64,000 nt of DNA. Origin: Porphyromonas pogonae (GTDB taxonomy: Bacteria; Bacteroidota; Bacteroidia; Bacteroidales; Porphyromonadaceae). Location: the NCBI RefSeq assembly GCF_036320655.1, contig NZ_CP143258.1, positions 124,001-188,000 on the forward strand. The letters are read 5' to 3'. The notes under the pieces were generated by a model. The model was not told the origin of the DNA. It did no database searches and was given only the letters and a program-made list of their open reading frames with translations. The position numbers and the translations under genes are program-made. Below, piece by piece: positions 5,479-45,532 of this stretch (the first letter of the stretch is position 1; each line of letters opens with the position of its first letter).

Positions 5479-5610
5479 TTTTTAGTTATCATACGCCAAC
5501 ACTTTAGTTAGAACACAAAAACATTTTAGTTAAAACACGCCAACGCTTTAACTAAAACACGAAAACATTTTAGTTAAACAAGAGGCCTGTTTTAGTTATA
5601 ATATGATTGT
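5479..5610 (+). repeat. 22-bp tandem repeat array 1 (six units)
   Basis: Six units start at 5479, 5501, 5523, 5545, 5567 and 5589, an exact 22-base period. The conserved part is ATTTTAGTTAAAACAC followed by six variable bases. The inner TTTTAGTTAAAA is almost palindromic, and unit 4 carries it in the reverse sense (AACT in place of AGTT). The first and last units are the most degenerate. The period of two helical turns would put every core on the same face of the DNA. The same repeat recurs at 44843-44974, again as six units. It is not a CRISPR: the variable part is too short. Confidence 0.9.
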
Positions 5611-5648
5611 GTATCAGCTGTAGTAAAGCGATTTAATAGGGATAAAAT

Positions 5649-5693
5649 AATAGATCCGCAAGCAGACTCCAAGAGTCTCCTTGCGGATCTATT
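5649..5693 (-). terminator. Very strong hairpin, probable terminator
   Basis: AATAGATCCGCAAG at 5649-5662 pairs with CTTGCGGATCTATT at 5680-5693. Inside it AGACTC pairs with GAGTCT around a 3-base loop. On the minus strand it is followed by TTTTATCC. It lies just past the small ORF at 5717-5869 and would close the transcript started at the 5943-5974 promoter. It also sits 38 bases from repeat array 1. Confidence 0.6.
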
Positions 5694-5716
5694 ATCCGTA
5701 TTTGTTTTAATGGATC

Positions 5717-5869
5717 TTACAATCTGACAATTTGATATTTTCGACTCTTCAATCCTATTCTGACATTTTGTAAATCGGAGGAGTGATATCTTTGCACACG
5801 CATATCCTCGAGATAAGAGTTTATCCGTATTCGATGTAATAGGTGATGTGACTCAATCCTTATATTCAT
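5717..5869 (-). CDS. Possible small protein of 50 residues
   Basis: An ATG-started frame of 50 codons, below the usual ORF cut-off. It lies between a strong promoter (5943-5974) and a strong hairpin (5649-5693) on the same strand. The product is basic, with many Arg, His and Lys residues and an ending RKYQIVRL, and it has no signal peptide or membrane helix. I do not recognise a family. The transcript may equally be non-coding. The case rests on its placement within a complete small transcription unit, not on homology. Confidence 0.3.
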   Translation of the reverse strand: MNIRIESHHLLHRIRINSYLEDMRVQRYHSSDLQNVRIGLKSRKYQIVRL

Positions 5870-5942: not shown

Positions 5943-5974
5943 CAAAGATACAACACTATACCCCCCTTTGTCAA
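5943..5974 (-). promoter_or_regulatory. Strong housekeeping promoter, copy A
   Basis: On the minus strand TTGACA is separated by 18 bases from TATCTTTG, matching the Bacteroidota TTG-N21-TAnnTTTG consensus exactly. The spacer (AAGGGGGGTATAGTGTTG) is close to those at 25412-25443 and 44520-44551. Transcription would start near 5936 and run leftwards through the 50-codon frame to the hairpin at 5649-5693. Confidence 0.7.
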
Positions 5975-7435: not shown

Positions 7436-8842
7436 TTACGAAGCGGACAACATCTCCTCTACACGCTCTATAGTAGCACGGAAAGCATTGTCCTGCTCCA
7501 TACGTGTGGCTACAGAGTTGCAACCGTGTAGTACTGTGGCATGATTGCGCCTACCCAGCATCTCACCTATGGCAACAAGTGAGTGAGAAGTGTGTTTTTT
7601 GGCAAGATACATGACAGCTTGACGAGCGGCCACTACGTCCTGCCTGCGGGTTTTATCTTTCATCTGGTCTATCTCAATATGAAAGACCTTGCTGATTACA
7701 CTTTGGATACCTTCTATGGTGATCTCATGCTTCTCCATAGAAACGGATTGGCTCACAATATCGCGAGTAAAGTCGAGATCAATTTTTCTTTTGGTGATAA
7801 GGGCATAGGTAAGCAAAGAGCTCAGAGTGCCTTCGAGTTCACGTACATTATTTTGTACATTACTAGCTATAAACTCCATGACTTCGTCACCCAAACGAAT
7901 GCCACTCTCCGCCACTTTTTCCTGGAGTATCTTACGCCTGAGGTCGATATCGGGTCGTGCCAGAGAAAGGGTCACTGAGCCTTTGATGCGACTGATAAGC
8001 CTGTCTTCCATACCGCTCAGATCCACAGGTGGCTTGTCGGAGGTGAGTACTATTTGTTTGTTGAGCAAGTACAAATGGTTAAACACTTCAAAAAAGGCCT
8101 GCTGCGTTTTGGTCTTGCCTATCAATCCCTGAATATCATCAATGATCAAGAGATCAATTTGCTGATAGAAATTGATAAAGTCCGTTCTCTCATGAAAACG
8201 GGAAGCAGTCACATATTGAGCTTCGAATTGCTGGCTGGAAACATAGAGTACACGCATTTCCGGATGCTGAGCTTTGACCCTAAGACCTATAGCTTGGCAG
8301 AGATGGGTCTTACCTACACCGCTGGGACCATAAAGAAAGAAAGGGTTGAGGGGCGATTGGCCGGGCTTGGCCGCTACAGCTTCTGCCACAGCTCTGGCTA
8401 CGTGGTTGCAGTCACTCTCATAGAATGTCTCAAAGCTAAGCTTGTCATTGAGGAAAGAATTGAACTCGTTCTTCCGGGCAAGCGGATCATTGAGCACATT
8501 GCCCGAAGCAAGCGGTGCAGGTGCTTTGGATGTGGAGCTGGACGCTACTGTCATGGTAGCATCTTCTCTTTTGGGAGCTTTGCTGTCTACAAGGATGTCA
8601 AAGTAGAGTGAGGCACCGGGACCAATATGTTGAGCCAATACATGGCTGATCTCACGAGGGAAATGCGTTTCCAAATATTCGCCAAAATAGGGAGAAGGGA
8701 CTTCCAATGTCAATTTCTGCTGCTCTATAGAGATCGGGACTATGGGAAGGAACCATGTCTCGAACGCTTTGGATTCAACCAAAGAGCGTAGGGTCTTGAG
8801 GCACTCTTGCCAGAGGCCGTGAACATCGGTGCTGTTAGACAT
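7436..8842 (-). CDS. dnaA: Chromosomal replication initiator DnaA
   Basis: A 468-residue initiator with the full domain order. Domain I (residues 1-85) contains the W-x-x-C-L-x-x-L motif. A variable linker (85-125) is rich in Ala and Ser. The AAA+ domain III has Walker A GPSGVGKT at 172-179 and Walker B LLIIDDIQ at about 231-238, with a sensor/arginine-finger region. Domain IV (about 370-468) carries RRNHATVLHGCNSV, the helix that binds DnaA boxes. It forms the ATP-dependent filament that opens oriC. It is transcribed alone and leftwards, without dnaN beside it, as is common in Bacteroidales. The DNA upstream (8843-9130) has DnaA-box-like sites, consistent with autoregulation or an origin nearby. 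Confidence 0.97.
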   Translation of the reverse strand: MSNSTDVHGLWQECLKTLRSLVESKAFETWFLPIVPISIEQQKLTLEVPSPYFGEYLETHFPREISHVLAQHIGPGASLYFDILVDSKAPKREDATMTVASSSTSKAPAPLASGNVLNDPLARKNEFNSFLNDKLSFETFYESDCNHVARAVAEAVAAKPGQSPLNPFFLYGPSGVGKTHLCQAIGLRVKAQHPEMRVLYVSSQQFEAQYVTASRFHERTDFINFYQQIDLLIIDDIQGLIGKTKTQQAFFEVFNHLYLLNKQIVLTSDKPPVDLSGMEDRLISRIKGSVTLSLARPDIDLRRKILQEKVAESGIRLGDEVMEFIASNVQNNVRELEGTLSSLLTYALITKRKIDLDFTRDIVSQSVSMEKHEITIEGIQSVISKVFHIEIDQMKDKTRRQDVVAARQAVMYLAKKHTSHSLVAIGEMLGRRNHATVLHGCNSVATRMEQDNAFRATIERVEEMLSAS

Positions 8843-25411: not shown

Positions 25412-25443
25412 TTGACAAGAGGGTGCATGATGTTGTATCTTTG
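25412..25443 (+). promoter_or_regulatory. Strong housekeeping promoter, copy B
   Basis: TTGACA, 18 bases, TATCTTTG. The spacer ends in TGTTG as in the copies at 5943-5974 and 44520-44551. It reads into DNA without a recognised gene; 67 bases on, a MITE has inserted. Confidence 0.7.
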
Positions 25444-25515: not shown

Positions 25516-25702
25516 GAGACTGTTGCAAAAGTCAACAGTCTTGTGGATTTTGGAGGCAAAGCCGACAAAAGACTCTTTGACCGGGCAGAGAGGGTAAAGT
25601 GCAAGGCACTAAGAGTGAGTGCACAGGGAGTTTACTTCAGGTAAATGACCAAGCGCGAATCTCGCAAGCAACGAAGCAATTGGCCTGCTATGCAACGGTC
25701 TC
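25516..25702 (+). mobile_element. 187-bp MITE, copy 1
   Basis: Ends GAGACTGTTGCA and TGCAACGGTCTC form 12-bp terminal inverted repeats with one mismatch. A 5-bp direct repeat AATAC flanks it at 25511-25515 and 25703-25707. The left end is also a hairpin (GACTGTTG/CAACAGTC). It has no transposase gene, so it must be moved by an element elsewhere. About 95% identical to the copies at 26396-26582 and 45243-45429. Confidence 0.92.
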
Positions 25703-25713
25703 AATACATAAAT

Positions 25714-25863: not shown

Positions 25864-26395
25864 CTTGTACAGGAGCCTGCATTTTCTTTCAAGACTACCC
25901 TCAACACCACTTCCCAAACTTTACAGTCATGTGCTAACAGCTCCAACCGATCATAATAAGTTGGCAGTTTCATGTATAAAGACAACAGACCTATCATAGA
26001 CCGTCGATCGACTTGTCATATAAGGTCTGTTGACTTATTATGCACGGACGGTTGACCCAGCCTAATAGGATTTTGAACATAACAGCTAATCAAGCCCAGG
26101 CAAGTATAAAGACAATGGAATGAAATATATGGCGGGTATATCTTATAATTATTCGCTTTGTAGTCTAAATCCTAACACCCATTTTATTAAGGGGTGTAAC
26201 TGTGAAGGTTTTATTCCTATAAAAGCCATTTCTTATTTATACTTTGTACAAATAAGCCCTACCTCTTAACTTAAACACGATAAATTTCAACGCTGATATA
26301 CCTATCCACAATATATTTAGTTTACTTTCAAACAGACCTTTCCAATTATTCTTATACCCAAAGAGACGGACGCATATTTTGACAAAATGTCAATC
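25864..26395. other. Non-coding stretch between two MITE copies
   Basis: About 530 bases with no supportable gene. AACAGACCT at 25984-25992 pairs with AGGTCTGTT at 26023-26031 around a 30-base loop, without a T-run. Near 26377-26392 there is TTGACAAAATGTCAA, an imperfect palindrome just before MITE copy 2. Nothing else is evident. Confidence 0.4.
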
Positions 26396-44519: not shown

Positions 44520-44551
44520 TTGACAAAGGGGGTATGTATGTTGTATCTTTG
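44520..44551 (+). promoter_or_regulatory. Strong housekeeping promoter, copy C
   Basis: TTGACA, 18 bases (AAGGGGGTATGTATGTTG), TATCTTTG. The sequence is close to copies A (5943-5974) and B (25412-25443). Transcription would start near 44558 and pass through a 57-codon frame and repeat array 2 to the terminator at 45056-45093. Confidence 0.75.
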
Positions 44552-44603: not shown

Positions 44604-44777
44604 ATGGGATTCAAGACCAATAACAAGACCTGCCCACACACGTGTTATAATGACTTATTCATCAATATGATGAATATAGACTATGTCTATCTCATGAAAT
44701 CAAGACCTTCACCAATCAGCAAATTTATAAGGATTTATAATGCCCAAGCCTACGGATACGTACTACTCCCGGTATAG
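44604..44777 (+). CDS. Possible small protein of 57 residues
   Basis: An ATG-started 57-codon frame, below the usual cut-off, whose start lies about 46 bases from the predicted start of transcription of promoter C. The product (MGFKTNNKTCPHTCYNDLF...YVLLPV) has two Cys near the N-terminus and no recognised domain. Placement after a strong promoter is the main support. No Shine-Dalgarno would be expected in this group, so its absence says nothing. Confidence 0.35.
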   Translation: MGFKTNNKTCPHTCYNDLFINMMNIDYVYLMKSRPSPISKFIRIYNAQAYGYVLLPV

Positions 44778-44842: not shown

Positions 44843-44974
44843 ACTACAACTAAAACATTCCCGTATCTTAACTAAAACACGAAAACATTTTAGTTAAGAC
44901 TCTTTCGTATTTTAGTTAAAACACCGAAACATTTTAGTTAAAACACGGCGCTATTTTAGTTAAAACACCTCTGT
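44843..44974 (+). repeat. 22-bp tandem repeat array 2 (six units)
   Basis: Units start at 44843, 44865, 44887, 44909, 44931 and 44953, an exact 22-base period. Units 4 to 6 share ATTTTAGTTAAAACAC perfectly, then six variable bases; units 1 and 2 carry the core in the reverse sense (AACT). It is the same repeat, copy number and period as at 5479-5610. Unit 2 here ends in ACACGAAAAC, like unit 4 of array 1. It lies inside the likely transcript from promoter C, 82 bases before a terminator. Confidence 0.9.
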
Positions 44975-45055: not shown

Positions 45056-45093
45056 AAAAGACCTTCTTTCTACCGAAAAAGAAGGTCTTTTTT
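45056..45093 (+). terminator. Terminator after repeat array 2
   Basis: AAAAGACCTTCTTT pairs with AAAGAAGGTCTTTT around a short loop, followed by further T. It works best on the plus strand. Confidence 0.8.
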
Positions 45094-45242: not shown

Positions 45243-45429
45243 GAGACCGTTGCATAGCAGGCAAATTGCTTCGTTGCTTGCGAGATTCGTGCTTGGTCAT
45301 TTACCTGAAGTAAACTCCCTGTGCACTCACTCTTAGCGCCTTGCACTTTACCTTCTCTGCCCGGTCAAAGTGTATTTTGTCGGCTTTGCCTCCAAAATCC
45401 ATGAGACTGTTGACTTTTGCAACAGTCTC
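45243..45429 (-). mobile_element. 187-bp MITE, copy 3
   Basis: The same 187-bp element in the opposite orientation to copies 1 and 2, with the 5-bp direct repeat ATTAT at 45238-45242 and 45430-45434. Three copies with three different 5-bp target duplications show independent transposition. Confidence 0.92.
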
Positions 45430-45532
45430 ATTATAAGAAGAACAAACATAAGATATCTAATAAGTTATTGCTGATTGGCAAAGGATGTATTCATAAGAAT
45501 AATGATACAATAAGAAGTCCGGGAGTGGGTAG

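Follow-up and report, generated by a model that had tools for sequence, protein, structure and literature searches.

Phased arrays of 22-bp near-palindromic units in the intergenic DNA of Porphyromonas pogonae and its relatives: candidate docking platforms for a DNA-binding protein

Short repeated sites in bacterial DNA are known in several forms. The plasmid origin R6K gamma carries an array of 22-bp iterons, and REP, BIME, and REPIN elements are intergenic and palindromic and occur in many copies in lineage-specific fashion. The BrickBuilt MITE of P. gingivalis is intergenic, with 19 segments and 1 to 22.8 repeats per element, and possesses a leader, a tail, and terminal inverted repeats (TIRs) (PMC4596501). 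FopS, a paralogous small RNA family of Bacteroides with 14 members, has been deposited in Rfam (PMC11697453). The TAACTGA heptamers of Beggiatoaceae and some Bacteroidetes are 7-bp direct repeats that, in the main genome, are located mostly just before start codons (PMC4679880), and short repeats of 3–31 bp were left unannotated in a further study (PMC5771137).

The stretch of DNA analyzed here (hereafter, the window) comprises 64,000 nucleotides of P. pogonae contig NZ_CP143258.1, positions 124,001 to 188,000. It contains arrays of 22-bp units that resemble each of the repeats above in part. The arrays share the 22-bp spacing of R6K gamma but differ from plasmid iterons in occupying tens of chromosomal loci and, in two families (A and B), in being built of orientation-free near-palindromes. 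Like REP and BIME sequences, they are palindromic intergenic repeats in lineage-specific families (12/18 arrays of one congener are palindromic), but they are distinguished from REP, BIME, and REPIN by an exact two-turn pitch, a free sequence, and, in P. pogonae, an attached promoter–ORF–terminator module. With BrickBuilt, to which an earlier note on this DNA had suggested a possible relation, they have in common an intergenic position, multiple copies, and short direct repeats within a dispersed element. By eye, however, the 23-nt consensus AGAYCATARTATCCTCTCRTRTG in the accessible part of that report (PMC4596501) differs in both sequence and period, and a relation was rejected on these two grounds; BrickBuilt also carries a leader, a tail, and TIRs, whereas the units here are 22 bp long and palindromic, with no TIR seen. 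One congener (G025) holds both BrickBuilt and 22-bp arrays. FopS RNAs are likewise multicopy transcripts, many of them intergenic, that end in a terminator hairpin, but the accessible text mentions no phased array (PMC11697453). The TAACTGA heptamers are likewise abundant between genes, as sets of repeats that share a TAACT-like core, but they are 7 bp long, and a 22-bp phase is not mentioned in the portion available (PMC4679880). Among the matches listed from literature titles and abstracts, which covered few subscription papers, there were no 22-bp Porphyromonas arrays, and novelty is unproven.

Array units and families in the P. pogonae genome

The family A array at 5480..5601 (no strand assigned) consists of six 22-bp units, read directly from the sequence, with core starts at 5480, 5502, 5524, 5546, 5568, and 5590. 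The AGTT/AACT cores described in the earlier note were confirmed at 5484, 5506, 5528, 5550, 5572, and 5594, in exact 22-bp steps, as was the retention of phase through an inversion, since AACT at 5550 marks an inverted unit. TRF gave the array a score of 142 at period 44 and of 98 at period 22. The same note had divided the unit into 16 plus 6 bases; the near-palindromic character holds, but the division is better placed at approximately 18 bp plus 4 free bases. The family A unit is thus a near-palindrome of approximately 18 bp, GTGTTTTA-RY-TAAAACAC, with approximately 4 free bases, and it can be written as TTTTARYTAAAACAC with period 22. Genome-wide, 139 of the 154 family A units have GT or AC as their central dinucleotide, so that each of these units is oriented despite its symmetric arms. 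Two more arrays were found in the window: a second family A array of six 22-bp units at 44844..44965 (no strand assigned), absent from the earlier note, and a family C array at 25988..26069 (+) with four units 22 bp apart as determined by unit scoring.

The genome of P. pogonae is a single contig (C1) of 2,916,423 bp. The two-core pattern TTTARYTAAA-N12-TTTARYTAAA matched the whole genome 80 times with ≤1 mismatch, compared to 0 for a reversed-pattern control; at ≤3 mismatches it gave 165 matches vs. 14, and a three-core pattern gave 152 vs. 1. The genome-wide count of the 22-nt-period motif that had been proposed yielded approximately 33 family A arrays, accepted from 38 candidates after five (indices 4, 17, 21, 22, and 33) were dropped as low-scoring chance matches. 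Two further 22-bp families, B (TTTTTCTARYTAAGAAAA) and C (GACYTATCNTATARGG), were reached by following copies of the promoter described below. Neighboring units were exactly 22 bp apart in 113/126 intervals of A, 78/95 of B, and 64/93 of C, and 21-bp steps were also present in family C. The arrays mostly contained 4–7 units.

The promoter-linked module

The array usually forms the 3′ end of a module of approximately 0.5 kb, composed of a promoter, a short transcript that usually contains an ORF, in many cases a terminator, and the array itself. A promoter-like block, TTGACAAAGGGGGG-N-ATGTTGTATCTTTG, occurs in the array flanks and points at the array in 25 of 33 family A arrays. The block has 80 copies in the genome at ≤3 mismatches (control 0); together with two found by inspection, 82 promoters were examined. 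An array of at least three units follows 74 of the 82 promoters by one rule and 71 by the other, approximately 270–730 bp downstream, with one at 938 bp. One rule of family assignment divided the 82 modules into 32 A, 21 B, 18 C, and 11 none, and a second, with a lax C threshold, into 28 A, 24 B, 22 C, and 8 none; at least three of these eight do carry an array, by eye or past the scanned range. The module promoter is probably strong.

In the window, the module promoter TTGACAAAGGGGGG...GTTGTATCTTTG lies at 5943..5974 (C1:129943-129974) on the minus strand and points towards the array. Its transcript contains a short ORF of 50 aa at 5717..5869 (−), with no Pfam or NCBIfam match, and a conserved segment at 5638..5776 (−), with paired TTGTCA-type motifs and a terminator hairpin. 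The hairpin, at approximately 5653–5689, is part of a stem for which 28 modules show covariation. The second family A module has its promoter at 44520..44551 (+), an ORF of 57 aa at 44604..44777 (+, no Pfam match), and, downstream of the array, a hairpin with a T-run at 45060..45089 (+, by eye). The promoter of the third module, which belongs to family C, lies at 25412..25443 (+; C1:149412-149443), with two mismatches to the pattern.

The transcript is common to A and B modules. Two classes of transcript accompany the A arrays: in nine cases it includes a segment termed R1, and in 19 it does not. In the 3′ part of the transcript, two TTGTCA-type motifs stand at a fixed spacing in most cases. 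From the 82 modules, 39 A/B transcripts were chosen by array distance and aligned; 30 of them (29 distinct) passed a hairpin filter, and 28 entered the covariation alignment, with L168 left out. The terminator has a 14-bp stem, with double changes at 13 of the 14 pairs among the 28 sequences. A covariance model of the 3′ part gave 50 matches in the genome, corresponding to 45 distinct places and five opposite-strand duplicates, and 0 in 60 relatives (E 0.001, strict filters). A terminator towards the array was found in this genome in 18/24 B, 11/28 A, and 0/22 C modules.

The longest early ORF was longer on average than in shuffled transcripts, at 39 vs. 17 aa in the R1 class (n = 38), 65 vs. 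23 aa in A modules without R1 (n = 18), and 41 vs. 22 aa in C modules (n = 22); the modules 527194, 2847321, and 762478, whose genes are larger, were excluded from this comparison. Individually, 25, 11, and 6 ORFs of these three groups, respectively, reached a shuffle p ≤ 0.1, and an ORF of at least 25 aa was absent from the tested stretch of 10 of the 82 modules. The scanned short ORFs had no Pfam match and no NCBIfam match at the curated cut-off. Rfam returned no family for the window at the gathering threshold. For 20 module loci searched at E up to 1, it returned one cobalamin riboswitch, at L102:1870-2065 (near C1:483474), close to a family A module; five miRNA rows in the same search scored far below gathering and were dismissed as chance. 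FopS was not among the Rfam rows for the window and the 20 loci, in a copy of the database that may lack it. The window module had no match among plasmids and phages at E 0.01, and IMG/VR contained no exact match to the promoter or to the paired-motif pattern. Two copies of the module promoter drive HU-HIG genes (C1:527194 and C1:2847321), one followed by a family A array and the other by an N-acetylmuramoyl-L-alanine amidase-like gene (by eye).

The borders of the module are the promoter and the array. Among diverged module pairs (<90% identity), 25 of 28 near-promoter matches begin 0–27 bp before the promoter. Of 111 same-family module matches, 62 end 101–112 or 125–132 bp past the array start, equivalent to approximately 5 or 6 units, and nine extend at least 329 bp past it. 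Only matches of at least 150 bp with <90% identity were taken for this analysis; the near-identical pairs that were left out extend past the borders, for example 483474/498253, to approximately 225 bp beyond the array.

Arrays in relatives and their chromosomal positions

The exact A motif was absent from the other 25 same-genus genomes searched, and none of the 25 contained the promoter block at ≤2 mismatches. The three-core pattern at ≤3 mismatches gave one match in congener G019 and 0 in the other 24 (controls 0–13), and the two-core pattern with one mismatch gave 1–3 matches in 12 of 81 genomes from other families of the order (controls 0–4). According to the earlier note, a motif found only here, with random spacing and unit number in close relatives, would point to chance or recent slippage; among 26 genomes of the genus the motif was indeed found in this one only, but neither the spacing nor the number of units is random. 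A period scan detected intergenic 22-bp arrays in all four sampled congeners, with 68 of 68 arrays outside predicted genes: G021 contributed 36 (800 kb scanned), G025 18 (600 kb), G012 11 (100 kb), and G018 3 (100 kb). The same scan of 250 kb of Escherichia coli K-12 found no array at period 22 and one each at 18 and 21. Period 21 also occurred in G021 (22 arrays) and G018 (7), partly as CTCTAAC heptamer runs, and period 23 in G025 (7 arrays, BrickBuilt included). One 23-bp array of G025, GTTGGGACCCCTTAGGGGTCTTG at L283:18426, is distinct from BrickBuilt.

The units of these arrays differ between species. Those of G025 include GATTTATATATAAATC (8 arrays) and TTTCCAC-GTGGAAA (3 arrays), those of G021 TCCACGTGGA, and G012 has others. 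In G025, at least 14 of 16 positions of the consensus unit are palindromic in 12/18 arrays, and 6/18 arrays lack clear palindromy. In whole genomes, pairs of TTTATATATAAA numbered 56 in G025, 83 in G010, and 30 in G006, with 0 in the other 23 of 26 genomes (controls 0), and pairs of TCCACGTGGA numbered 346 in G021, 315 in G018, 85 in G019, 9 in G013, 3 in G002, and 1 in G003, with 0 in the remaining 20 of 26 (controls 0–2). The array families are clade-restricted. The commonest array length is five units in G021, G025, G012, and the metagenome-assembled genome (MAG) G119.

The module layout is not universal across relatives. For at least one locus of G025 (L280), a promoter-like sequence, a 40-aa ORF, a terminator, and an array were recognized by eye. 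Terminators towards the array were found at 3/5 arrays of G025, 6/15 of G021, and 1/11 of G012, compared to 3, 1, and 2 of 60 random positions, and at 2/10 and 3/8 arrays in the MAGs. An HMM of the R1 peptide reached at best E 0.005 in the congeners, at a site not adjoining any array, and phmmer with a family C module peptide gave one match there (E 2.4e-4), also not adjoining an array. Beyond the genus, eight stretches of the GTDB collection matched the three-core pattern, and four MAGs behind them were searched. Two Bacteroidaceae MAGs carry 22-bp arrays at several loci: G119, with 24 two-core matches vs. 3 in the control and typically TTAAAACYCAATTGRGTTTTAA x4 at the 10 loci examined, and G122, with 11 vs. 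0 and fewer full units at the nine loci examined. G120 (7 matches, control 2) and G121 (4, control 1) have mainly one array each. The module layout was not seen in five stretches read beyond the genus. In IMG/VR, the three-core pattern matches at two places: a run of 11-bp TTAAACTTTAG units, and tandem 22-bp units TAGGAATTTAATTAAAATATGT at 24-105 of the viral contig IMGVR_UViG_3300035698_004156 (L054).

Some array positions are shared between species. Reciprocal best hits of array-flanking genes also flank congener arrays in 8/45 cases, whereas for other genes the figure is 1/56 (p 0.0098). One gene, encountered in two congeners, accounts for two of the eight, and the sample had been extended following an initial comparison on less sequence (4/18 vs. 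1/31, p 0.054). When limited to genes beside gaps of at least 300 bp, the contrast was 8/24 vs. 1/15 (p 0.115). Between the close congeners G018 and G021, with arrays called by motif, array-flanking orthologues coincide in 4/6 vs. 6/47 (p 0.0087). The array lies on the same gene side in all four shared cases, and two and six orthologues are flanked in a single species, so that 8 of 12 array-flanking orthologues have an array in one species only. These results indicate that positions are partly retained and partly lost.

Along the P. pogonae chromosome, 90 loci (82 promoters, 11 of them without a clear array, plus eight promoterless arrays) show a more regular spacing than random (gap CV 0.74 vs. 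0.98, p 0.0014). By approximate GC skew from partial sequence, the origin lies near 390 kb and the terminus within approximately 1.6–1.95 Mb; a terminus gap suspected from binned locus counts was dropped in view of this skew. The dnaA gene (window 7436-8842) lies near 132 kb of the contig, yet the skew changes sign near 390 kb. Distance to dnaA shows a weak difference between the three families (uncorrected p 0.017, 0.040, and 0.75), to which no weight was given.

Proposed docking role and rival explanations

Taken together, the fixed pitch, palindromes, narrow unit number, tolerance of inversion, and sequence turnover are best explained by cooperative dimer binding, and we consider it probable that the array is a cooperative docking platform for a dimeric, sequence-specific DNA-binding protein. 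One dimer would bind each near-palindrome of approximately 18 bp, and successive dimers would sit two helical turns apart on the same DNA face, which would make cooperative binding possible; an array would thus hold approximately 5–6 dimers over 110–130 bp. The arrays form a dispersed, lineage-specific family of intergenic elements. Families A, B, and C may be recognized by proteins of one geometry but different specificity, and in other lineages the geometry is retained while the site sequence is swapped, as is expected if array and protein co-evolve. We infer that such arrays could act as local architectural or insulating nucleoprotein blocks beside small, strongly transcribed units. HU-HIG, considered as the binder on the basis of gene expansion, found no support, as there is no special expansion here (8 copies; congeners 3–17).

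The arrays point to a poorly described chromosome-wide docking system. They are common between the genes of Porphyromonas, a well-studied genus with a human pathogen among its members. Should they prove to be docking platforms, Bacteroidales would have a major family of chromosome-binding or regulatory proteins that still lacks a name, and the arrays would supply species-specific bait sequences for it. The conserved pitch and free sequence amount to a natural experiment in protein–site co-evolution. As a tentative generalization, Porphyromonas, and probably other Bacteroidales, might carry tens to more than 100 intergenic arrays per genome (a figure extrapolated from samples), each a row of approximately five dimer sites spaced at a constant two helical turns, with fast array–protein co-evolution replacing the site sequence clade by clade while the geometry and some positions persist. 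The proposed replacement may be compared to the sequence turnover of eukaryotic centromeres.

The arrays could instead be functionless minisatellites produced by replication slippage, and recent 44-bp expansion is evident in one 15-unit family A array (C1:763394-763713). Adjacent units are identical at 14.4 of 22 positions in A, 13.9 in B, and 13.4 in C, compared to 14.0, 13.7, and 12.3 for units of other arrays, an excess of 0.5, 0.15, and 1.05, respectively; identity falls with distance in C, where neighbors are thus approximately one base in 22 more alike, but shows no fall in A or B. Since A and B neighbors are hardly more alike than units across arrays, recent slippage is not their origin, and for these two families slippage is largely refuted. 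The narrow range of unit numbers and the same pitch in congeners with unrelated sequences also argue against slippage, which we regard as highly improbable. The earlier note's preference for repeated protein-binding sites is indirectly supported by the same comparison in family A, by near-palindromic units with a free center, by the survival of phase through inversions, and by the congeners' retention of the pitch with other sequences. A stronger rival, although still only a possible one, treats the modules and arrays as non-autonomous, REPIN- or MITE-like mobile elements, whose array end would be bound by a transposase or recombinase with a 22-bp subunit footprint. The ends of Tn7 and Mu carry arrays of fixed-footprint sites, and the dispersed units, the homology borders at promoter and array end, and the restriction of multicopy families to clades are in agreement with mobility; the single-species arrays at 8/12 orthologues of two close congeners fit it too. 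However, there is no clear target-site duplication, as the longest shared flank word averages 5.8 vs. 5.3 ± 0.13 shuffled, a slight surplus for which local base composition may be responsible. TIRs were not seen, and inverted words in the flanks show little excess (5.54 vs. 5.38 ± 0.13); most copies are old (65–80% identity in most listed pairs), and A arrays are found with two transcript classes. An architectural or insulating role for the array is placed slightly ahead of mobility.

It is rather unlikely that the arrays are operators through which a few transcription regulators control the small module genes or their neighbors. Phased palindromes are the typical operator form and the arrays are associated with a conserved promoter, but they lie far downstream of that promoter and in many cases past a terminator. 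An operator array for the adjacent gene, as the earlier note had allowed alongside iterons, is not favored because neighboring genes show no consistent orientation around arrays and their distances vary as well (no statistical test). Both mobility and an operator function are compatible with a docking platform. We consider it improbable that the arrays are terminus-excluding nucleoid-occlusion or chromosome-domain sites resembling those of Noc, SlmA, or MatP. The even spacing of the 90 loci agrees with such sites, and the sole sparse bin (1.46–1.70 Mb, two loci) partly covers the border of the terminus range; however, the bin at 1.70–1.94 Mb, inside the approximate terminus range, holds 10 loci, and recombinational loss of close repeats could also yield even spacing.

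Other repeats accompany some of the arrays. A MITE-like repeat of approximately 190 bp (ends GAGACTGTTGCAAAAGTC...) is present in the window at approximately 25517–25705, from approximately 26396 onward, and at 45243–45430; its longer matches share >92% identity, and it occurs in 10 of 33 array flanks and once inside a module (by eye). Long near-identical repeats (98–99%) were found at C1:498253, 656923, 1025075, 1855013, 1976963, and 2675038. They end exactly at the promoter 5′ border (..GATTAG before the TTGAC block), as though that border served as a target. Four of these six have an ORF of approximately 449 aa nearby, and they are probably insertion sequences.
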